A stretch of 61,596 nt of DNA. Source: a virus. Within the stretch, counting starts at the first letter, position 1. Each line of letters starts with the position of its first letter. Below are positions 4,550 through 61,248 of this stretch, piece by piece. The position numbers and the translations under genes are program-made. The stretch spans positions 1-61,596 of the IMG/VR virus record IMGVR_UViG_3300021090_000021, one strand, 5' to 3'. Below the pieces are notes generated by a model. That model saw nothing but the letters and a program-made list of their open reading frames with translations, had not been told where the DNA came from and ran no database searches.

Positions 4550-5452
4550 TCAGAAGCCCCAAAATGTCTGTTGATTAGCCGTAACATCGTCCCGTTGAGT
4601 GGCATCCCACGCAGCATCCCAAGCCCCGCCCTCACGGAAGTCACCATCCAGGAACGAGCTGCCGAACTGGCCGATAAGCCAAAATGTATTTGGGTAGCCT
4701 GTACCGGCGTCTCCGGTGGTATCGGTGCCGTCGATGTTGATGACGGACGACGTGCTATTCATCACCCCTTGCAGAGCATGCCACGTGTTATCCGCTGCAG
4801 TTGCGAGCAAATCGGTGCCGCCATAGACACCCAATGTGTTGGCGCCGACACCGAACTCAGCGCCCCGTGATACGCCACCCCAGATGCCTTGCGTATTGGT
4901 GAAGTTGCCCGTGCGCTTGGCCACGGTGCTGAGGGTGACGGGCTGCGAGCCAGCCGCCAGCGTTGCCAAGTACGCTCCGCCTGTCGCACGAACAAAATGA
5001 ACGTGGCCGAGACCCGTGTTGATAAGTTGAGCTTGTAGTCCCGCAGTTGCTTGCCCTTGATTTCGTCCGTTTCCGGACTGATCGTAAAACGTGGTGACAA
5101 ATACGTTTGCTCCACCAGCCCAACTATCGAAAACAGACGCCAAATTGAGACTGCCACCCGCCGCAGACACGACGTCCATTTCGGCCTGATCGCTGTCGCG
5201 GCGAACGCGGATCAGGCTGGCGCCGATGGTGGCCTGCGTGTAGGCGCGAATGCCCCACCACACCACAGCTCCACTAACGACATCACCGGGGCCGACATAG
5301 CCCCCACCGCCACCGCCACCGGCCTTCTTTCCCGCGCCGGTCTGCATCAGTTGCGCGGCCGCCGGCCGGATGATCGCCGGTGCAGCCGGAATGAATAGTG
5401 TCGCGGCGGCACCGAGAAGAAACCGGCGCCGGGGGATCAGCAGCTTGGCCAT
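4550..5452 (-). CDS. Tat-signal protein with arabinofuranosidase-like (concanavalin-type) domain
   Basis: A 300-residue protein. The N-terminus has PRRRFLLGAA followed by a hydrophobic stretch and AAA sites near 33, a twin-arginine-type signal. A glycine run (GGGGGGGYVGPGD) links to a domain containing LIRVRRDSDQAEMDV and VTTFYDQSGNGRNQGQ. These match the sequence pattern of the alpha-L-arabinofuranosidase B catalytic/concanavalin-like family, which is often found on phage virions. The remainder has LamG-like features. Catalytic residues were not identified, so sugar binding is as likely as hydrolysis. It lies in the fibre/decoration block. Confidence 0.65.
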   Translation of the reverse strand: MAKLLIPRRRFLLGAAATLFIPAAPAIIRPAAAQLMQTGAGKKAGGGGGGGYVGPGDVVSGAVVWWGIRAYTQATIGASLIRVRRDSDQAEMDVVSAAGGSLNLASVFDSWAGGANVFVTTFYDQSGNGRNQGQATAGLQAQLINTGLGHVHFVRATGGAYLATLAAGSQPVTLSTVAKRTGNFTNTQGIWGGVSRGAEFGVGANTLGVYGGTDLLATAADNTWHALQGVMNSTSSVINIDGTDTTGDAGTGYPNTFWLIGQFGSSFLDGDFREGGAWDAAWDATQRDDVTANQQTFWGF

Positions 5453-5467
5453 CTTATTAAATCCTTC

Positions 5468-6307
5468 TCAGGGCGTCTTGAAGTAGTGAACCATCGCCTG
5501 CACCGGCTGGCCGGCGGAGGTGTTGATGCAGAGCGCATTGCTCGCGGCGGTGGCCAGCGACGCCGGCGGCACATTGGAATTCACCAGGCCGACCTGGGCG
5601 GTGAGCTGCCAAGCCGGGGTCAGATTGGTGGAGCCCGTCGCACAGGCCGTCCCGGTGCCGTAAATCAGTTTTACGTTCGCGGTGCCGCCGGCCAAGATCG
5701 ACAGACCGCAGACATAAATCGTCTTGCCTGAGGTCAGCGCGACAAGCTCCGTGGAGCCGTTGGTCGAGGCGTCATAAATCGCGGTGGCGTTGCAGGGTGA
5801 CTGCACCGACAGCACGTTGGTCGTGCTCGGCACCCCCGGCGTCCCGACCGCCACAATCCCGGAGGTGAGATTCTGGTTGGTGCGCTTTTGCAAGGCGATC
5901 AGCGAACAGCTGCCGTTGTCGCTGGCGCAAGCGGTATCGGCCTGGGCTCCAAGATCGACCACAGCGCCAGACGCGACCGCGCCGGATGCGAAAGCCCCGG
6001 ATGCATAGGCGCCGGACGCCACAGCACCCGAGGCGACGCCACCCGATGCTATGTTGACTTTTGCAGCCGTTGCATTCGCCCCCGTATTGGCAATGCTGAC
6101 CTGCAGCGGAACCGCTGCGGTTCCAACCTCAATATTGGATGAATTGATCAGAACCGTCGCCGGACACACCTTCGAGGTTGAGCAGACGAACGAAAACGCC
6201 GTCTGCACTACACCGCCGGAATCCTTGAATGTGTAGTCCGCCAACACATAGCCGCCGGCCAGCGAGATGATGCAAGCCACGACGATCGTTCGAAGCCAAT
6301 TTCGCAT
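5468..6307 (-). CDS. Secreted virion-associated protein with ASGA repeats
   Basis: A 279-residue protein starting at ATG 6307, with AAGGAT a few bases upstream. Residues 1-25 are a Sec-type signal ending in VLADY. The segment DYTFKDSGG and the motif NSSNIEVGTAAVPLQV resemble the next gene upstream, so they are paralogues. Around residues 90-120 there are six five-residue repeats of the ASGAV type, encoded near 5960-6050. The C-terminal half is beta-rich with several cysteines. No function is known. The context suggests a decoration or fibre role. Confidence 0.65.
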   Translation of the reverse strand: MRNWLRTIVVACIISLAGGYVLADYTFKDSGGVVQTAFSFVCSTSKVCPATVLINSSNIEVGTAAVPLQVSIANTGANATAAKVNIASGGVASGAVASGAYASGAFASGAVASGAVVDLGAQADTACASDNGSCSLIALQKRTNQNLTSGIVAVGTPGVPSTTNVLSVQSPCNATAIYDASTNGSTELVALTSGKTIYVCGLSILAGGTANVKLIYGTGTACATGSTNLTPAWQLTAQVGLVNSNVPPASLATAASNALCINTSAGQPVQAMVHYFKTP

Positions 6308-14089: not shown

Positions 14090-16432
14090 TCAATTCACCA
14101 TCGGTCCGCGCACGTCGCCAGCTGTATCGATGAAGGTCAGGAAGCTGTCGCCATCGACCGCCGATCCAGGTGGCCCACCGCTCCCACCAATCAACACCCC
14201 AATGCCACTGTGACCCGCTTCGCCCGATTGACCGGCCTCACCGCCGTTTCCACCGCTTCCGCCACCGTCATTTCCACCACCACCGCCACCACGGTTGCTG
14301 GCGCTGCCGGGTGAGCCGATGTTCCCCGACGAGCCAGACCCGCCGCTGCCATCACTGCCTGGACCACCACCAACTTGCCCTTGACCGCCGCCGCCGCCGC
14401 CGCCGCCGCCGCCAAATCCAAAACCACCGCCGCCACCGCCGCCACCACCGCCACCGCCGCTCCAGAGACCGCCGGTTGCTGGCGTATCCACATCGACTGC
14501 AACGCGGGTATAGAGCGCCACCCCACCCTGTGTTCCCGGCGTGCCATTACTGCCTGGACTGCTGAAATCCGCGCCCCAGCCACCGCCGCCGCCGCCAGCA
14601 TCACCACCGGCGCCATGGATCCGTCCGCTACCGTTGATCTTGAGCACCAAGGAAACGCCAGCCGGCCACGATCCGAAGTCCATCGCCGGAAGTGATCTGC
14701 TGATCGATCCGACAATCACGCCATCCTCGACGATCACCGTCACGGTGTCGCCGCTCAACGGCGCCGGATAGATCTGATCGTGCGCTGTACGCACGTTGAT
14801 GTTGTTGATGCTGGAACCGATCGGCAAAAACCGGTTGGTCAGGTCGTCGGTCTGGATATCCTCGGCCAGCATTTCTTCGGCTTCGACTTCGAACTTGTCC
14901 GCCTCCGGATTGACTCGGGTCAACTGAATCGGAGCGTCGGTCGCTGCGCCTGTCGGATCCTGGATGCACCAGGCCTCAAGGCGATAGCCGGCCCCCATCA
15001 CCGGCGGCGTGATGTCGTAGCGCGGCAGGTTGAAACCAAATCGGCGTGGCGGATTTCGGTAGCGAGCGAGCTGGATGCTGTTGAGCCGGGTCGCCACCGT
15101 TCGCCCCAGCGGCGGAATCCAGCGCGCGAAGATCTTTTTGATCGCCGGCAGCCCGTAGTCAGCCTCCGCCTGGTCGTCGATTGTCGCTTCAGTCGAGCGA
15201 TAGTTGTCGGTCTCCTCCAGCGGCCGCAGCGGGTTGATCTGACCGAAATAGGTCCAAACCTGAGAAATACGCTTCTCCGGCTGCTCCTTGATCGTCAGCG
15301 AGGTCTCCAGCGAGTTGTCCGGCGTGTAGCGATCGGCGTCGGTGAGCACCGCCCGGATCACCTGCAATCTGATCTGCTGGGACAAATCATCCCACCAGAC
15401 CGCAAGGCCTGCCTGCTCGATCAGCTCGGCCGCAAGTTTTGCGACCGGGGTCGGCTCCATGATGTCCGCGGAATACAGCCGCTGCAGGAAATTCTGCGTC
15501 TCAGAAAGCCAAGCTGTGATCGGGATGAACGCCGGCGGGATGTCGGCGTAGTTCTCGAACAGATCCTTGATGATGTTTGCCGGGTCGACGCCTGAATAGA
15601 TCAGACCGACCTGCACGCGATCATCGGCATTATGCGCGACCGGCTCGGTGTTGCGCTGCCCGCGCGCGATCGTGAGCGTGTCGCCCGAACGCGTGAAGGA
15701 CACAACCTCCTTCCCGCCGATCGCCGCCAGACCCGAAGCGGGATATTCCAAATTCCCGATTCCAACAGGGGCAAGCGTTGCAGTGCCATCGCTGTTGCTG
15801 ATCCCGGCCGACAGAAACCCATTGTTGAGCCGTGGCGCCTGCGCACGGTCGCCGTCAGCGAGCTTGAGCACGTCCTTCGCGACCAGCGTGTAGGTGCCGT
15901 TGAGGCCAGGCCCGTCGAAGCTCTCTATGATGTAGTGCCGCGTGTCCATCTGGTTGAGCTTTTGGCCCAACAATCCGCGGATGAGGCGCAGCGGCCGCCC
16001 GCGCAGAAACGGCTGACGCGCGCGAAATTTTCCGAAGAACGAACCGCGCAGATAGGGGTCATAGAGCCGCTCGCTCAGATACTTGTCGAATCCAGGACCC
16101 GTGTCCGAATGTGGATGATCGATGAAGCTGACCTTGACCGTTGCTCTCTGACCCAGGTCGGCGCCCAGCGATATCGTGCCTGGCGTGAAGTCGACGCCAT
16201 CCGGCTTGATGGATGGAATCGCCTCGATGTCGGTCGGCAAATAGCTCGTCGGGATCGCGAAGCGCAAGGTGATCGGTGCGTCGGTAAAATTCGCACGATC
16301 CTGGCAGGTGGGAATGACGTTGAAGCACTTCAGCAAACCGGTCGTGCCCAGAACTGCCACACACGGCGAAATCCCATAGCTCAGCGCGCAGTACGGTATG
16401 TCGATCTCGATGTAGGTCAGCGATCGGTTCAT
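14090..16432 (-). CDS. Tail tip/baseplate protein with polyglycine C-terminal domain
   Basis: A 780-residue protein. The N-terminal 560 residues resemble central tail tip proteins of the lambda J/GTA type. They include conserved-looking hub segments (DPYLRGSFFGKFRAR, GVDPANIIKDLFENYADI, LIEQAGLAVWWDD, YFGQINPL) and a long beta-rich core. From about residue 600 the chain becomes glycine-rich, with runs of up to 12 G interrupted by F, W, Q or S, then GSGGNGGEAGQSGEAG. This resembles polyglycine-helix sandwich adhesins of other phages. Receptor contact is inferred from that domain. Confidence 0.7.
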   Translation of the reverse strand: MNRSLTYIEIDIPYCALSYGISPCVAVLGTTGLLKCFNVIPTCQDRANFTDAPITLRFAIPTSYLPTDIEAIPSIKPDGVDFTPGTISLGADLGQRATVKVSFIDHPHSDTGPGFDKYLSERLYDPYLRGSFFGKFRARQPFLRGRPLRLIRGLLGQKLNQMDTRHYIIESFDGPGLNGTYTLVAKDVLKLADGDRAQAPRLNNGFLSAGISNSDGTATLAPVGIGNLEYPASGLAAIGGKEVVSFTRSGDTLTIARGQRNTEPVAHNADDRVQVGLIYSGVDPANIIKDLFENYADIPPAFIPITAWLSETQNFLQRLYSADIMEPTPVAKLAAELIEQAGLAVWWDDLSQQIRLQVIRAVLTDADRYTPDNSLETSLTIKEQPEKRISQVWTYFGQINPLRPLEETDNYRSTEATIDDQAEADYGLPAIKKIFARWIPPLGRTVATRLNSIQLARYRNPPRRFGFNLPRYDITPPVMGAGYRLEAWCIQDPTGAATDAPIQLTRVNPEADKFEVEAEEMLAEDIQTDDLTNRFLPIGSSINNINVRTAHDQIYPAPLSGDTVTVIVEDGVIVGSISRSLPAMDFGSWPAGVSLVLKINGSGRIHGAGGDAGGGGGGWGADFSSPGSNGTPGTQGGVALYTRVAVDVDTPATGGLWSGGGGGGGGGGGGFGFGGGGGGGGGGQGQVGGGPGSDGSGGSGSSGNIGSPGSASNRGGGGGGNDGGGSGGNGGEAGQSGEAGHSGIGVLIGGSGGPPGSAVDGDSFLTFIDTAGDVRGPMVN

Positions 16433-32558: not shown

Positions 32559-32581
32559 TCCTCTACCTTCCCACCTGCGAA

Positions 32582-32621
32582 AAAAGGGCCTCGGCGCAGT
32601 GTTTAAGTCCGAGGCCCTTTT
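32582..32621 (-). terminator. Terminator 3 in front of late operon
   Basis: A perfect 13-bp stem, AAAAGGGCCTCGG (32582-32594) with CCGAGGCCCTTTT (32609-32621), loop 14 nt. On the minus strand a run of six U follows. A strong intrinsic terminator, possibly bidirectional. Confidence 0.85.
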
Positions 32622-32703
32622 GAGTTTAGGGAGGAAACGCCCAAGGAGGGCGGCGGTAACGCGAGGCGCTACCGCACACCCTATGAGCCCCAGAAAAGCA
32701 ATG

Positions 32704-43874: not shown

Positions 43875-44537
43875 CTATTCCTCCGGGCCCATGCCGTCGC
43901 CGCCGCTCTCGATGCGCCAGCCCTTGTCCCAATGCGCGCGGCGGGAATCGCCGAACGGGAACGGGTTGTTGATGATGGGGACATCAGCCTTGAACGCGGC
44001 ACGGCCCAACTTGATGGCGCCGTCGGAATCGACATCGGGAACGTCGACTTTCGGCGGCGCGGCGGGACGCTTGGCCGCACCGGCCTTGCCGGGCTCGACC
44101 GGCGTCTCGATGACCTCGGTCACGGAAATGTTGCCGTCCTTGTCGCGGGTCAGGCGAACCGGCGCACCGCCGGCCTCGACCGTGATCGATCCGTTTGCCG
44201 GCACGAAGGACTTCATCGCCTCGATCACGGACTCGCGTGCGGTGATGTCGACCTTCATCAGGCCGACGGCGCGGAACAGCGGGTTATCCGCCGCCATGCC
44301 CATGGCGTGCAGATACATGTCCTCCAGCGCCTCGGCTTCTGCGCGATCCGACGGCTTCATCTTCCGTTTCTTGACGATGTAGCGGATGTCGGCGGGGATC
44401 AGGTTCGCGGCCTTGGCTTCGGCCATGACGACACCCTTGTCCTGCTGGAGCTGCTTGATCTGTGCGTCGAGGTTCTCGACACGCTCGACGAAGCCACGCA
44501 GTAGCTCGCCGCCGATGGTGTTCTGGCCGATGCTCAT
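43875..44537 (-). CDS. GapR-like DNA-binding protein with RMF-like C-terminus
   Basis: A 220-residue protein. Residues 1-75 fit the GapR (DUF2312) family: LLRGFVERVENLDAQIKQLQ, VVMAEAKAANLIPADIRYIV, KKRK. GapR proteins coil around overtwisted DNA ahead of replication forks in alphaproteobacteria. After a linker, the C-terminus (NNPFPFGDSRRAHWDKGWR) resembles a ribosome modulation factor module. ATG 44537 has GGAGG at a better distance than the ATG at 44540. Confidence 0.65.
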   Translation of the reverse strand: MSIGQNTIGGELLRGFVERVENLDAQIKQLQQDKGVVMAEAKAANLIPADIRYIVKKRKMKPSDRAEAEALEDMYLHAMGMAADNPLFRAVGLMKVDITARESVIEAMKSFVPANGSITVEAGGAPVRLTRDKDGNISVTEVIETPVEPGKAGAAKRPAAPPKVDVPDVDSDGAIKLGRAAFKADVPIINNPFPFGDSRRAHWDKGWRIESGGDGMGPEE

Positions 44538-45553
44538 CATGATGCCTCCGATGTAGGATGCGTAGCGGCTGCAAAGCCGAGACTGCGGATCAGATTGGCG
44601 CTGTCGGCGAACCGCGCGTGGCCCAGCCAGGCCGTCAGGAACTGCTGCAGCCGATCGTCGTCGCCGTTGGCGCGGTAGGACGCGATCTTGCGCCGGGCGC
44701 GGACCACACTGTCGCGGCGCAGCAACTTATGACTTGGCCAGATGCGATAGCCGAGGAAGTTCACGCCGCGCGAGATCGGTGCAATCTGCCACTTGGAAAA
44801 GCGAAGGCCGAGCTCGGCGCGAGAGAACACCTCAACGCTCGCCTTGACGCGACGCAGGTGCTCGCTGCTCGCGCCGAGCACGACCAGATCGTCCATGTAG
44901 CGGTACCAAAACCGCTCACCCAGGCCCTGCTGCAGGTGCCGGTCGAGCGTGGCGCCGGTATAGTAGTTGGCGAAGATCTGCGAGGTGAGGCTGCCGATCG
45001 GCAGGCCGATGCCCGCACGCGGCACCATGGTGGTGAGCAGGCGCAGCGTCGCGCGGCAGCTGATCTTGGCTTCGATAAGCCGCCATAGGGTCGCCAGTTC
45101 GATTGAGGCGAAATAGCCGGAGAAGTCGGTCTTGAGGAAATAGAGCGGTTCGGACGGATCGCGCGATAGCCGCCGCAGGTCGCTCTGCAAGAGCCGCACA
45201 CCGGCATGCGTGCCCTTGCCCGGGCGGCAGGCGAAGGCCCGCGGCAGCAAGGCACGATCGAAGATCGGCGCAATGACCAGGCACAAGGCCTGCTGCGCGA
45301 CGCGGTCGCGGAACGGCAGGGCCGAGATCAGCCGGCGCTTGGGATCGAAGATCAGGAATTCGTTGGGCGTCCCCGGCCGGTAGGTGCCGTCCGCCATCTC
45401 CTCGGCGAGTGCTGCGAGGTTGAGCGCGTCATATTCCTTGAACGCGAGGTAGCTCGGCGTCAGGCGCTTGCCGCAGCAGGTCAGCCGGTACGCCGCCTGC
45501 ATCGTGCAAAAGTCGGTGATGCGTGCAATCAGGTTGCGATAACGCTTTGCCAT
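44537..45553 (-). CDS. DGR reverse transcriptase
   Basis: A 338-residue protein of the diversity-generating-retroelement reverse transcriptase family. It shows KTDFSGYFASI (141-151), GLPIGSLTSQIFANYY (183-198), and the catalytic YMDD (219-222). ATG 45553 was chosen: the same frame runs further upstream through the template repeat but that part is RNA, not protein. In known systems the enzyme copies the template RNA while replacing adenines randomly. It ends in an overlap with the GapR-like gene. Confidence 0.9.
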   Translation of the reverse strand: MAKRYRNLIARITDFCTMQAAYRLTCCGKRLTPSYLAFKEYDALNLAALAEEMADGTYRPGTPNEFLIFDPKRRLISALPFRDRVAQQALCLVIAPIFDRALLPRAFACRPGKGTHAGVRLLQSDLRRLSRDPSEPLYFLKTDFSGYFASIELATLWRLIEAKISCRATLRLLTTMVPRAGIGLPIGSLTSQIFANYYTGATLDRHLQQGLGERFWYRYMDDLVVLGASSEHLRRVKASVEVFSRAELGLRFSKWQIAPISRGVNFLGYRIWPSHKLLRRDSVVRARRKIASYRANGDDDRLQQFLTAWLGHARFADSANLIRSLGFAAATHPTSEAS

Positions 45554-45740
45554 GGGTGACCTAGGGAAAGCCGGCCGCGGGTCTCGACGGGTTTCCCCGC
45601 TACGCCCCGCTCTGCCGGACCGTGAAATGTGTTCGCCGAAGCAGGACAGGCGGGCTGACCACCGATCGCGATCACAAAGCATGTGAACGCGAGTGGCCGG
45701 CCGGCGGGACCGTGATCGCCGCCGAGCCGCAAACCGGTCG

Positions 45741-45868
45741 TCACCGCGGCCGCGCGCACCGATGTTGTCGTCGGAATTGTCGGGCCAGTTGTACGCGACG
45801 TTCGCGTAGCGCGAGCCAGCGTTGTCGCCGTTGTACCAGCTGCCGCCGAACATCGAGGCGCGGGGCAT
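45741..45868 (-). repeat. DGR template repeat (TR)
   Basis: A 128-bp segment between avd and the reverse transcriptase gene, 187 bases ahead of the RT start. It aligns without gaps to 46333-46460. The ten differences all fall on A residues of the TR coding (minus) strand, ten of 24 A in the segment. The 24 bp at 45741-45764 are GC-rich and identical in VR, a likely IMH-equivalent. The stretch from RT to TR (45554-45740) holds no gene and probably belongs to the template RNA. Confidence 0.9.
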
Positions 45869-45870
45869 CA

Positions 45871-46281
45871 TCATCGTTTCCCCGCCTGCCCCATCGGACG
45901 CGCGAGCGCGTCCGAACTCTGTTGCCCGAGCTTCCTTTGCCAGGCGCCCAGCATCCGCCCCGGCTCCGACAGCAACGCCAGCGCGGTGCCGTGCTGATGC
46001 GGGGTGAGGATCCTGATGCCGTCCCTGACGAGGAAACGCAGATGTGACCGCAGGGTCGCGAATTCGGCGTCGACGGCATGAAGCCTCGACACCTGCCGCG
46101 ACCGAGCGGCGTGATAGAGACCTCCGATCGGCACGAACAGTGCCGCGAGCACGATGTCACGGATGACTCCGTGCCGCCGCGGCGCATTCTGCAGGATCGG
46201 ATAGAGATAGGTCACGAAGGCCTCATATTTTTCAACGATCGCCAGACCGTCAGTTGCAAGGTTGTCATCCCTGGCGATCAT
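45871..46281 (-). CDS. avd: Avd-like accessory protein of the DGR
   Basis: A 136-residue mainly helical protein: LAIVEKYEAFVTYLYPILQNAPRR, VIRDIVLAALFVPIGGLYHAA, ATLRSHLRFLVRDGIRIL and GTALALLSEPGRMLGAWQRKL (each shown in part). This fits the four-helix Avd family that binds template RNA together with the reverse transcriptase. It lies between target and TR, the normal location, and stops 3 bases before TR. Confidence 0.85.
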   Translation of the reverse strand: MIARDDNLATDGLAIVEKYEAFVTYLYPILQNAPRRHGVIRDIVLAALFVPIGGLYHAARSRQVSRLHAVDAEFATLRSHLRFLVRDGIRILTPHQHGTALALLSEPGRMLGAWQRKLGQQSSDALARPMGQAGKR

Positions 46282-46293
46282 CGTTGGACCGGG

Positions 46294-46315
46294 AGCCGTC
46301 GCTGTCGCGACGGCT
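46294..46315 (-). other. DGR target hairpin with GRNA-type tetraloop
   Basis: AGCCGTCGC (46294-46302) and GCGACGGCT (46307-46315) form a perfect 9-bp stem. On the coding (minus) strand the loop is GACA, which fits the GRNA tetraloops of hairpins required for DGR retrohoming in Bordetella phage. It lies 17 bp past the end of VR and overlaps the target gene's TAG stop. Confidence 0.8.
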
Positions 46316-47237
46316 AAGCAAGTTGCAGGTGATCACCGCGGCCGCGCGCACCGATGTGGCCGCCGGAATTGTCGGGCCAGTTGCACGCGACGTACGCGCA
46401 GCGCGAGCCAGCGTAGCCGCCGGAGTACCAGCTGCCGCCGAACATCGAGGCGCGGGGCATGTAGGGATCTCCGTCGTGACCCCAAGCCCAGAGATTGCCG
46501 GTCGCCTGCATGAGACCGAACTTGCTCGTGCGCGGCGCGTCGAGGCCCGTGACCTTGGGGTCGTCGCGGCACGACGACTTTTCCGTGACGCCATAAGCTG
46601 CCGCGAAAAACTCCTCGGGTCCGAGCAATCCCTTGCGGTGATGCTTCATCACCGCCACGGCGGTGTCGTAGTCGAGCTTCTTGAACGTCCCGCCGGCCGG
46701 CTTGAGCGGCGGGTCATCGCCGTCCGCGATCAGCACACCGAATTTGCTGGTGCCGTCGCCAACATGATTGACGCCGAGCAGATAGATGTCGGCCCAGAAC
46801 GTGCGCCCGGGCACGTCGACCAGCGCCATGCCGCGGGGATCGGGACATGCCGGCCGGAAGTTGATGTCCCAGAGCGAGCAGGGATTGATCGCGGGCACGG
46901 TGTCACCGCCGCTGCGCGCGGTCGCATTGCCGCCCGGTGCGAAATGAAAACCGCCGAGCAGGATGTCGCCGTGCGGAATGATCGTGGTCCGCGCGATCGA
47001 GACCTCGCCGTCCCTGACGTGCACCTCGTAGTCCGCGCCGGCGATGTAGCCGGGCTCGCCTTTCTCGTTGAGATGCAGCGAGACCGGCGTGTCATCGGTA
47101 AAACGATGCCCGGCGAAGATCGTGCCGGCCTTGATGACGATCGCGGACGATCCGGTCACCTTGAAGACCGGCGATCCCGGGTCGGGCTTGACCAGCCGCT
47201 GGGCGGTGTCGGCCGCAACAGACGCGCGCTTGTTCAT
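46314..47237 (-). CDS. DGR target protein with C-type-lectin-like variable domain
   Basis: A 307-residue protein. The N-terminal 190 residues are beta-rich and not recognised (SSAIVIKAGTIFAGHRFTDD, GYIAGADYEVHVRDGEVSI, GGFHFAPGGNATARSGG). The C-terminal part resembles the formylglycine-generating-enzyme/C-type lectin fold used by DGR targets (KFGLMQATGNLWAWGHDGD, RASMFGGSWY). The VR at 46333-46460 encodes its last ~43 residues and would diversify the ligand face. It starts 3 bases after the Gp37/Gp68 gene and follows it in the early operon. Confidence 0.85.
   Translation of the reverse strand: MNKRASVAADTAQRLVKPDPGSPVFKVTGSSAIVIKAGTIFAGHRFTDDTPVSLHLNEKGEPGYIAGADYEVHVRDGEVSIARTTIIPHGDILLGGFHFAPGGNATARSGGDTVPAINPCSLWDINFRPACPDPRGMALVDVPGRTFWADIYLLGVNHVGDGTSKFGVLIADGDDPPLKPAGGTFKKLDYDTAVAVMKHHRKGLLGPEEFFAAAYGVTEKSSCRDDPKVTGLDAPRTSKFGLMQATGNLWAWGHDGDPYMPRASMFGGSWYSGGYAGSRCAYVACNWPDNSGGHIGARGRGDHLQLA
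46333..46460 (-). repeat. DGR variable repeat (VR)
   Basis: 128 bp at the 3' end of the target gene, matching TR except at ten positions, all A in TR (five A-to-G, three A-to-T, two A-to-C on the coding strand). They change nine codons: N to S, D to G, N to Y, Y to C, N to Y, Y to C, D to G, D to G and N to H. The 24 bp next to the 3' end are unchanged. Confidence 0.9.
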
Positions 47238-47240
47238 GTG

Positions 47241-48437
47241 TCATGGCTCCATGCAAAAGGCCGGCGACCCGCCGGCAGGGTTCGATGAATTCGGTGATGC
47301 AATCTCCGCTCGGAGCGGAAAGCCGTTGTGCTCGACGCCGTCGAGCAGGCGTCCGGCGGCTTTCTTGCCGACGTGGATCAATGTGGAACCGTCGCTGTGG
47401 TGCTCGAGCCTGTCACATCCCGTGTTGGCCAACAGCTGAGCGTCGGAATAATTGAGAGGCCTGTGTGGTGCCCATGGTTTGCCGTCGATCAGTATCCGCG
47501 ATGGTCCGCGCTGAATGATGCTCAGCCATTCATCGGCGTCGATCCATTCGCCGTTCTGCTTGTGGAAATAGGCAACACCGGCCGCTTTGCATTGGTCACG
47601 CAACGACGCAAACCATGCACGCGGAGCACCGCGCGCCTTGCTGCCGCTCTCGCCGCCGGTGATGAGCCAGTCGAGCTTGCCCTGCGATGCGTCGACGTAC
47701 CGCAAAGCATCGAACCCATCGGAGATGTCGTCGGACTCTGGATAGCGAACATGCCCCGCGCCCCACGGAATATCGGTCAGGTCGATCGGCGCCAGCAACG
47801 GTTCGCAGGAGACACAGCGCAGCGCAGCCTTCGTGTTGAGCAAGATTGGAATAAATTCGTCAGCCTCCGCCTGATTGGATACGGAGGTGCCTTCGATGAC
47901 GTTGCGCAATGGCAGGCGTGGCAGCACATGCTTTCCGCCGAGGCTTTCCGGCCCGCGAACCACTTTCTCGGCGGCCAGCTCGATCGCGTTGTGGCGGCGC
48001 GGACCGTCAAGGTATTGCCGCCGCCGCTCGGGGCGCTTGCTTAGATTGATGTATGTGTGCTGCGGGGTGAGAGCCATCACAGCGTAAAGCTGGTCGATAA
48101 ACTCCGTCGGCCACCACTCGCCGAAAGCGTCGCTCATTGATTCCACGAAGATCTTGGTGGGCTTCTTCCGCCTGAGCGGGGCGAGAAGCTTCTCTTTGTC
48201 GACCGTGAAGCGATAGCGGAATCGGTTGCCGGGCTTGAACTCCAGGCCGCCGAGGCGGAAGTTGCCCTTCCCGGCGTAGCAGAACCGGCAGGCCTCATTC
48301 ACGTGCTCGCAATGGTGCGCGGAGACCGTGATGGTCTTTCCCTTGCGTTCGATCTCGCGCTCGGCGCGCAGCGCATTCCAGGACTGGCCCTTGGATCCGT
48401 CGGCGCCGAGCAACCATTCGATGGAGGTCTCAGCCAT
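47241..48437 (-). CDS. Phage Gp37/Gp68-family protein (DUF5131)
   Basis: A 398-residue protein with the family pattern: SIEWLLGADGSKGQSWNALR, a cysteine cluster CEHVNEACRFCYAG like that of radical-SAM-type proteins, PTKIFVESMSDAFGEWWP, LTPQHTYINLSKRPER, CVSCEPLLAPIDLTD, WLITGGESGSKARGAPR. It is widespread in phages and of unknown chemistry. The cysteines suggest a metal cluster. Directly upstream of the DGR target gene. Confidence 0.8.
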   Translation of the reverse strand: MAETSIEWLLGADGSKGQSWNALRAEREIERKGKTITVSAHHCEHVNEACRFCYAGKGNFRLGGLEFKPGNRFRYRFTVDKEKLLAPLRRKKPTKIFVESMSDAFGEWWPTEFIDQLYAVMALTPQHTYINLSKRPERRRQYLDGPRRHNAIELAAEKVVRGPESLGGKHVLPRLPLRNVIEGTSVSNQAEADEFIPILLNTKAALRCVSCEPLLAPIDLTDIPWGAGHVRYPESDDISDGFDALRYVDASQGKLDWLITGGESGSKARGAPRAWFASLRDQCKAAGVAYFHKQNGEWIDADEWLSIIQRGPSRILIDGKPWAPHRPLNYSDAQLLANTGCDRLEHHSDGSTLIHVGKKAAGRLLDGVEHNGFPLRAEIASPNSSNPAGGSPAFCMEP

Positions 48438-58580: not shown

Positions 58581-59008
58581 ACGACCCAGTAATTCCAGAA
58601 CGCGTCCGCCTGGCGTTCGAGGGACATAGCTGCCTGCCCCCGGCCGAGCTCGCCCCCTTGCTCAAGGTCGATGTCAAGACCTTGCGCGGGCTCTGCACGG
58701 ATGGCCTGATGCCCTGGCACGTCAAGGGCCGCGGCCGCAAGCGGCAGCATCGCGTGTTCACGCTGGCCGACGTCGCCGAATATTATCGGCGCACGAGCTG
58801 CGAGGGAGTGGGCGCATGTCCGTCTACAAGCACCGGAACTCACCGTTCTGGCAGTTCGATTTCGTCCGCAGTGGTTATCGATTTTCCGGATCGACCGGCA
58901 TCAAGAAGACAAAGCCCAGGCGCGAAGCCGAAGCGGTCGAAAAGGAAGAGTGTCGGGCGGCCGAGCGTCTTGTTGAAGAGATTCGGCGTTCCGGACGGAG
59001 GCCGATGA
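58577..59008 (+). CDS. Excisionase/MerR-like HTH protein overlapping integrase
   Basis: A 143-residue frame. Residues 1-75 look like a MerR/excisionase helix-turn-helix (LPPAELAPLLKVDVKTLRGL, CTDGLMPWHVKGRGRKRQHR, VFTLADVAEYYRR). The frame then continues 193 nt into the integrase gene as low-complexity sequence. The real protein may end there by an unusual overlap. Probably controls integration direction. Confidence 0.6.
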   Translation: MNDPVIPERVRLAFEGHSCLPPAELAPLLKVDVKTLRGLCTDGLMPWHVKGRGRKRQHRVFTLADVAEYYRRTSCEGVGACPSTSTGTHRSGSSISSAVVIDFPDRPASRRQSPGAKPKRSKRKSVGRPSVLLKRFGVPDGGR

Positions 59009-59988
59009 CGGTCGCGAACGCGTTCGATCGCTGGTGGACCGAAATCGGGGAGCACCTCTCTGAGACGGATCTGAGAACCAGACTCGACTGGCTGCGCGAC
59101 GAGCTCGGGGCCAAGACGCTGCTGCACGACGTCACCGCCGACGATGTAACCAAGGCCATGACCGCCAGGCGCCTGCATGTGGTGCCGGCCGGCCGCGATG
59201 ACGACGGCAAGCAACTGTATCGCCCGATCGGCGCCCGCACAGTCAATCGCACCGTGCCGATGCTGCTGCGCCGTGTGACGCGCCGCGCCGTCGACCTTTG
59301 GAACGTCGTGATCCTGCGCGAGCCCAAATGGGGCAAGCTTGTCCTGAAGGAGATCAGGCGGCCGATCGAAGAGCTGTCGCTCGCCACCGAGGACGCGCTC
59401 GACGCCCAAGAGCGCGCCGACTACCAGCCCTGCCGGCGGTTCGCGACCATCATGGGGTTGCGCCTCAAGGAAGCGCTGCTGATCTGGCCGCAGGTCGACT
59501 TCGACGCCGCCGAGATCAGGATCGTCGGCAAGGGTGACAAGCCTGCGGTGCTACCGCTGACGCGCGAAGCCTACGAGATCCTGTGGGCCGAGCGCGAGCG
59601 AGATCCGCTGCACGTCTTCACCTTCGAGGCGATGCAGACACAACGCCGGCCGAACGGCGTGCGCTACATCAAAGGCCAGCGCTACCCGATCACCTATTGG
59701 GGGCTCACCTCACATCGGCGCCGCAACTGGAAGAAGGCGGGCGCCCATGGGCGTTTTCACGATCTGCGGCACACGACCGGCCGGCGACATCTGCGCGCCA
59801 CCGGCAACCTCAAGAGCGTCCAGCAGCTGCTACGCCACAGCGACATCTCGACCACCGCCCGCTTCTATGCCGACGTTCTCCTCGAAGACGTCCGCGCCGG
59901 CATGGAAAAGACCGCGGCCGACATTTCGTCCCGTAAGGAGTCCCGGAGGGCAAGGGAAGCACCGGCCAAGGCCTTGAAGAGGCGATAG
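58816..59988 (+). CDS. int: Tyrosine recombinase, prophage integrase
   Basis: A 390-residue protein. The N-terminal part binds arm sites (SVYKHRNSPFWQFDF). A core-binding helix bundle follows. The catalytic domain has R216 (MGLRLKEALL), a lysine in GKGDKPAVLPL, HDLRHTTGRR (H315, R318), H341 (LLRHSDISTTARFY) and Y351. It integrates the phage into the tRNA-Arg gene next to it. Confidence 0.9.
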   Translation: MSVYKHRNSPFWQFDFVRSGYRFSGSTGIKKTKPRREAEAVEKEECRAAERLVEEIRRSGRRPMTVANAFDRWWTEIGEHLSETDLRTRLDWLRDELGAKTLLHDVTADDVTKAMTARRLHVVPAGRDDDGKQLYRPIGARTVNRTVPMLLRRVTRRAVDLWNVVILREPKWGKLVLKEIRRPIEELSLATEDALDAQERADYQPCRRFATIMGLRLKEALLIWPQVDFDAAEIRIVGKGDKPAVLPLTREAYEILWAERERDPLHVFTFEAMQTQRRPNGVRYIKGQRYPITYWGLTSHRRRNWKKAGAHGRFHDLRHTTGRRHLRATGNLKSVQQLLRHSDISTTARFYADVLLEDVRAGMEKTAADISSRKESRRAREAPAKALKRR

Positions 59989-60007: not shown

Positions 60008-60055
60008 AGCCTTCTAAGCTGTTGGTCGGAGGTTCGAGTCCTCCCGGGGTCGCCA
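60008..60055 (+). other. attR: 3' part of tRNA-Arg(TCT)
   Basis: The anticodon loop CTTCTAA (60011-60017, anticodon TCT), variable loop, T arm GGAGG-TTCGAGT-CCTCC (60028-60044), acceptor CGGGGTC, discriminator G and CCA (60053-60055) are present, but no D arm or 5' acceptor. The 5' anticodon stem mismatches at 60007, so the shared core probably starts near 60008. This is expected where a phage integrates in a tRNA 3' end. The full tRNA should lie at the left prophage end. Confidence 0.75.
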
Positions 60056-60617: not shown

Positions 60618-60896
60618 ATGATCAGGAGCTGGAAAAGCGCACCACTACGGGAGTTGTTCGAAACCGGAACGGCGCGCCGCATCGATACCAAGCTGCAAAG
60701 ACGCTGCCTCGCACGGCTCACATCGCTAAACCAAGCGACGGACCTGCGGCAGCTTCACCTTCCTGGTTACGAGCTGCACAAGTGGGAAGGCAAATGGGCG
60801 AACAAGTGGTCGATCTCGGTGTCCGGACACTGGCGGATCACCTTCGATTGGATTAATGGGGAGGCCCACGATGTCGATCTTGAGCAACCACACTGA
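60618..60896 (+). CDS. higB: HigB-type toxin
   Basis: A 92-residue protein with the RelE/HigB pattern (RLTSLNQATDLRQLHLPGYE, HKWEGKWANKWSISVSGHWR, ITFDWINGEAHDVDLE). It is an mRNA interferase in related systems. Overlaps the antitoxin gene. Confidence 0.85.
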   Translation: MIRSWKSAPLRELFETGTARRIDTKLQRRCLARLTSLNQATDLRQLHLPGYELHKWEGKWANKWSISVSGHWRITFDWINGEAHDVDLEQPH

Positions 60897-61248
60897 CCCG
60901 GCGGAGAGGCTCCGGCCGCCGCCGGCCGGAGACCTCCCGATGGCGACCTATCCCGCCCGCCCGCGTAAGGTAGCGCCGCTGCATCCCGGCGCGGTCGCCG
61001 CCGACGTCCTCGAGGAGCGGCAGGTCTCGCTGCGCCAGGCCGCCAAGGCCATCGGCCTGTCGCCGACCGGCTTGAGCAAGGTGCTCACCGGCAAGAGCCC
61101 GGTGACGCCGGAGACGGCGCTGCGCTTCGGCGTGTACTTCGGTAATGGGCCGGAGATCTGGCAGCGGCTGCAGAACGACTATGATCTGTGGCACGCGGGC
61201 GCGGCCATGAAAGCCGAGCTCAGAAAGATCAAGCCGCTGCAGAAGTGA
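60871..61248 (+). CDS. higA: HigA-type antitoxin
   Basis: A 125-residue HTH protein (HPGAVAADVLEERQVSLRQA, AKAIGLSPTGLSKVLTGKSP, ETALRFGVYFGNGPEIWQRL) of the HigA/VapI family, with GGGGAGG before ATG 60871. It neutralises HigB and probably represses the promoter. Confidence 0.85.
   Translation: MSILSNHTDPAERLRPPPAGDLPMATYPARPRKVAPLHPGAVAADVLEERQVSLRQAAKAIGLSPTGLSKVLTGKSPVTPETALRFGVYFGNGPEIWQRLQNDYDLWHAGAAMKAELRKIKPLQK

Follow-up and report, generated by a model that had tools for sequence, protein, structure and literature searches.

The 61,596 bases analysed here, a linear virus record referred to as a whole as the window, almost certainly hold a complete BPP-1-like (Bordetella-type) diversity-generating retroelement (DGR) of a temperate, probably alphaproteobacterial, phage. 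DGR cassettes were first seen in the Bordetella phage BPP-1, where an RNA template is copied with errors at adenines, rewriting the tip of a receptor-binding protein. In the window the elements follow one another on the minus strand, in the order of transcription, as a target gene with its variable repeat (VR), a stem-loop, avd, the template repeat (TR), an RNA spacer and the gene for the reverse transcriptase (RT). A first-pass annotation, made by a model from the sequence, had reported the target with VR, avd, TR and RT as consecutive on this strand and had called the DGR complete; all of these were present at the positions that it gave, and RT, Avd, target, TR/VR, RNA spacer and post-VR stem-loop are each separately recognisable as Bordetella-type. 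The BPP-1 DGR (mtd-avd-TR-brt) shares with the window the gene order and strand, a TR that abuts avd, the RT, Avd and Mtd families, a Phage_DGR RNA between TR and RT, and a VR whose GC-rich end precedes a stem capped by a GRNA loop. The cassette is a further example of a well-described machine, ordinary in kind, in a soil-type phage genome; unusual for a DGR are its position in the genome and a target without the usual tail-attachment domain.

Reverse transcriptase, Avd and structured RNAs

The RT gene (44537-45553, minus strand) codes for a protein of 338 aa. DGR RTs are recognised by YMDD together with [I/V/L]GxxxSQ; the window RT has YMDD and IGSLTSQ, and both motifs named in the first-pass annotation, YMDD and GLPIGSLTSQ, could be read in the sequence. 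A longer open frame (44537-45874) reads through TR; the ATG at 45553 is the most likely start codon, since the alignment with BPP-1 Brt then begins at residue 1. It shares 53% identity with Brt, and its match to the solved complex of Brt and Avd (PDB 8ub7) spans residues 1-322 (E value 1.9e-110). In a maximum-likelihood tree BPP-1 Brt and the window RT belong to one group of 24 rows (support 99/96), from which four group II intron RTs are separated (support 100/100); an RT outside the DGRs, which the earlier annotation had named as the finding that would speak against it, was thus looked for, and the RT proved to group with Brt, away from the group II introns. NCBIfam matches to group II and retron RTs are weak and below the cut-off, and an origin as either kind of enzyme was ruled out by the tree and the identities.

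Avd, the accessory variability determinant, is a protein of 136 aa (45871-46281, minus strand), recognised by NCBIfam model NF033474 (103 bits, cut-off 80), by Pfam bAvd (84 bits, cut-off 40) and by PDB entries 4dwl and 8ub7 chain B (E about 1e-24).

Between TR and RT lies an RNA spacer (45570-45695, minus strand) that matches the full length of Rfam RF03022, Phage_DGR, with 76.1 bits (gathering score 50); the same model also scores in BPP-1 and in nine relatives. The conserved part of the spacer is 81% identical to that of BPP-1 over 64 alignment columns, whereas the RT genes are only 62% identical, and its stems covary: changes on both sides were seen in 10 of 25 pairs among 19 sequences, values reached by none of 500 shuffles. 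The whole distance from TR to RT is 187 nt in the window and 144 nt in BPP-1.

The 3' end of VR is GC-rich and is followed, after 17 nt, by a stem-loop (46294-46315, minus strand) that overlaps the stop codon of the target and consists of a 9-bp perfect stem and the loop GACA, which fits GRNA; the loop in BPP-1 is GAAA. No other perfect 8-bp stem with a GRNA loop occurs on either strand of the window, and many relatives have a stem-loop at the same place, with the same loop and different stem letters. In BPP-1 a stem-loop with a GRNA loop behind VR is required, and this is a rule for BPP-1-type targets (PMC3240598). The GC-rich end would correspond to the IMH, with putative boundaries.

Target protein, repeats and their variation

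The target gene (46314-47237, minus strand) codes for an Mtd-like receptor-binding protein of 307 aa, made up of a beta-sandwich and a C-type-lectin part. Its identity to Mtd is 41-42%, measured over 95% of the target; the match to PDB entry 1yu3 has an E value of 1.9e-51 and aligns to Mtd 57-380, and all solved Mtd variants match it from Mtd residue 57 to the end. The target also matches PHROG 11262, a tail protein (E 2e-78), and the Pfam family mtd_2nd above its cut-off. Foldseek with an AlphaFold model of the target returned all five Mtd variants (E about 1e-16); the confidence of the model is low in the lectin part, so that the structural statements made here rest on sequence. A counterpart of Mtd 1-56, the N-terminal beta-prism, was found neither in the window target nor in the targets of its close clade, and the protein is therefore homologous to Mtd but incomplete, with 307 aa compared with 381 aa for BPP-1 Mtd. 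Close-clade targets measure about 300 aa and begin at the Mtd beta-sandwich; the full-length targets of outer relatives have 341-706 aa. In Mtd the beta-prism presumably provides the link to the tail fibre. Its lack, together with a target gene that does not adjoin the tail-fibre gene, counts against the main reading, in which the protein would presumably be displayed on the virion.

TR (45741-45868, minus strand) starts two bases after the avd stop codon; VR (46333-46460, minus strand) lies inside the 3' end of the target and is in frame with its C-terminus, over codons 260-302. The two match over 128 bp without a gap, just as the first-pass annotation had it, with 92.2% identity and a spacing of 592. 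Within this 128-bp core all 10 mismatches fall at TR adenines, of which 24 are available, a pattern expected by chance with a probability of 8.6e-9 (hypergeometric), and on these statistics a chance repeat was ruled out as the origin of TR and VR. None of the TR codons in the VR frame can be turned into a stop codon by changes at A; since the other two frames contain just 0 and 1 such codons, the stop-free VR frame is weak evidence. Variation of VR could yield about 2.7e13 different proteins. A second VR was not found within the window by blastn or tblastn.

Variation itself could be followed in related phages. Three loci that are 98-99% identical (L023, L024 and L025) have identical TRs; between their VRs, 6 to 13 of the 21 A sites are different, compared with 0 of 99 other sites. 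Two further loci, L017 and L019, are 92.6% identical and have two targets each; they agree in TR and at 197 of 197 non-A VR sites, and differ at 28 of 48 A sites. Across 35 TR/VR pairs, from the window and related loci, mismatches occupy 399 of 775 A sites and 15 of 3492 non-A sites; the alignment score used for these pairs was milder on A mismatches, which slightly favours A at the ends, whereas the A-only pattern within the core and the comparison of near-identical phages are independent of it. The earlier annotation had held that a fixed VR would count against a DGR; in the related phages VR differs almost only at A-derived sites, with TR unchanged. Divergence confined to A among near-identical relatives is an indirect sign of mutagenic retrohoming. 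A near-identical sister of the window phage was found neither among phage records nor in a TR-pattern scan of viral contigs; with none found, we infer current activity in the window phage from its intact parts, and the DGR, complete as it is, is probably active. Diversification of VR would then be expected in this phage too.

The RT frame of L025 (1661-2626) ends after 43 codons despite a strongly diversified VR, which may reflect recent decay or a sequencing error. For L068 a VR was not found with a TR sought within 480 bp of RT; there, TR probably lies further off.

Genome surroundings and related cassettes

The cassette lies among early DNA-metabolism genes, about 30 kb from the tail-fibre gene and outside the tail module; the mtd gene of BPP-1, by contrast, comes after a tail-fibre gene. 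Its neighbours are a C5 methyltransferase, a DUF5131 protein, a GapR-like protein, an AAA ATPase and a ParB/methyltransferase gene. The start of the gene for the GapR-like DNA-binding-domain protein (43875-44540, minus strand; PF10073, 61 bits) overlaps the RT stop codon by four bases, and the two genes are likely to be co-transcribed. In the related locus L032 the pair of gapR and AAA genes is found on the other side of the DGR; thus, either the cassette or the pair has moved. Directly upstream of the target is the DUF5131 protein (47241-48437, minus strand; Pfam, 205 bits), which weakly resembles a radical SAM mobile-pair protein; DUF5131-like genes are also found near many related DGRs.

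Besides terminase (29-31.6 kb), capsid, tail and tail-fibre (14.1-16.4 kb) genes, the phage carries a tyrosine integrase (58816-59988, plus strand; PF00589, 55 bits), adjoined by the 3' end of a tRNA-Arg(TCT) (60012-60055, plus strand), a probable att core; intact tRNA-Arg(TCT) genes from genomes of Xanthobacteraceae have exactly this sequence as their 3' part. Because the integrase has this tRNA 3' end right behind it, the phage is very likely temperate. The first-pass annotation had spoken of a prophage; integrase and tRNA end are in keeping with that term, and as to a bacterial right flank, a comparison of the last 1.5 kb with 199 Xanthobacteraceae-related genomes gave only short weak matches. 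Beyond the tRNA fragment, two adjacent ORFs (60618-61248, plus strand) resemble, by eye, a HigB/HigA toxin-antitoxin pair, and this stretch is possibly host DNA.

The nearest likenesses to the window are the Mtd-type DGRs of related phages and prophages, loci L002-L019, L032, L066 and L067, which come from Alphaproteobacteria where named; they have RTs about 68-83% identical to that of the window, targets of about 300 aa, the RNA, mostly the stem-loop, and the same early-gene kind of surroundings. Of 18 neighbouring ORFs tested in close relatives, chosen by hand for size, 12 match replication, ParB, methyltransferase or similar families of DNA metabolism and regulation, and none matches a tail family. 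Most close relatives are without the window's terminase (some records are fragments), and its tail-fibre gene was not found in any relative searched, a search made with no positive control and partly on fragments; the cassette therefore seems to move between phages.

The window has one target; in at least eight relatives a single TR serves a pair of Mtd targets. In L066 (reverse complement) these lie at 5252-6127 (minus strand) and 15075-15983 (plus strand), about 9 kb apart and inverted, and served by one TR; mismatches to TR fall at A in 13 of 13 and 9 of 9 cases across the two targets, the second target, on the opposite strand, having the 13 of 13 and the same stem-loop. Multi-target DGRs are known, about 13% of cassettes having two target genes as quoted in PMC10743442. 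The tentaclin two-target phage DGRs described there resemble the window's relatives in that one TR serves more than one lectin-type target; they differ in that their two targets are of different topologies, whereas both targets of the relatives are Mtd paralogs (PMC10743442).

A broader reading of these features is tentative, and we hold it to be possible though on balance doubtful: a distinct lineage of alphaproteobacterial-phage DGRs may have left the tail module for the early/replication module, move between phages with unrelated virion genes, often serve a pair of Mtd paralogs, in one case inverted and separated by about 9 kb, and have a target without an attachment domain that either attaches to virions by a new route or has its role elsewhere. 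The two last options follow from the absence of the attachment domain. The value of the present case lies in the lineage, whose features are interesting if modest; an early-encoded receptor-binding protein without an attachment domain raises a testable question of where it acts. The orientation of the target relative to replication sets the rate of retrohoming (PMC12875486), and relatives with two targets on one TR, among them L066 (inverted, about 9 kb), are natural test cases for that effect. In the window the cumulative GC skew falls over most of the length with no clear turning point, and no replication origin was placed for that reason.

Proposed mechanism and alternative readings

In BPP-1 the spacer has two roles, recruitment of the RT-Avd complex and priming of cDNA synthesis; adenines are miscopied, and the cDNA replaces VR, aided by the IMH and the stem-loop (PMC12875486; PMC3240598). 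Every element for this mechanism is present in the window, and the biochemical steps themselves would be the same: a transcript with the end of avd, TR and the spacer would fold at the spacer and recruit the RT-Avd complex; RT would copy TR into cDNA with random bases opposite adenines; and the cDNA would replace VR, guided by the GC-rich VR 3' end and the stem-loop behind it. The outcome would be a continuing supply of Mtd-like receptor-binding proteins that vary in their C-type-lectin face, through which the phage may track changes of receptor.

A once-working DGR that is now inactive, whether decayed or silenced, would leave VR as a frozen variant. In favour of this, some distant relatives look decayed, as the truncated RT frame of L025 illustrates; in the window, however, the RT, avd and target frames are intact with the catalytic motifs kept, the RNA spacer and stem-loop are intact as well, and not a single non-A mismatch has accumulated between TR and VR, which makes this reading improbable. 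Slightly less probable again, by our estimate, is a DGR that works on a target serving in the cell or the lysogen, for example in exclusion or surface binding, and not as a receptor-binding protein of the virion. Its early-module position, in the window phage and in the close relatives tested, would fit such a role, as would the absence of the beta-prism throughout the close clade, the distance of 30 kb to the tail-fibre gene and the second, inverted target of L066. Against it stand the identity of 41-42% to Mtd across both the beta-sandwich and the lectin parts and the annotation of the PHROG as tail; moreover, a signal peptide or membrane segment is not evident by eye. If the repeat were the remains of an ordinary duplication or recombination event, lying next to an unrelated RT from a group II intron or a retron, the weak, below-cut-off NCBIfam matches would fit. 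Against this, the mismatches are one-way and at A only, the RT groups with Brt, with which it shares 53% identity, and Avd and the Phage_DGR RNA are present. We give this reading practically no weight, the A-only pattern and the RT tree refuting it, and retain a complete, probably active BPP-1-like DGR.

Apart from the cassette, positions 32571-32658 on the minus strand match the mmgR/suhB small RNA family (Rfam RF00519) over its full length, with 56.4 bits (gathering score 41). The site is immediately upstream of the stretch with a family match in the gene that precedes the terminase genes. A scan of ten related loci did not find the RNA; the records of most of these loci leave the corresponding stretch uncovered. 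With its strong terminator stem and U-run, the match is a phage-borne copy of an alphaproteobacterial regulatory RNA.
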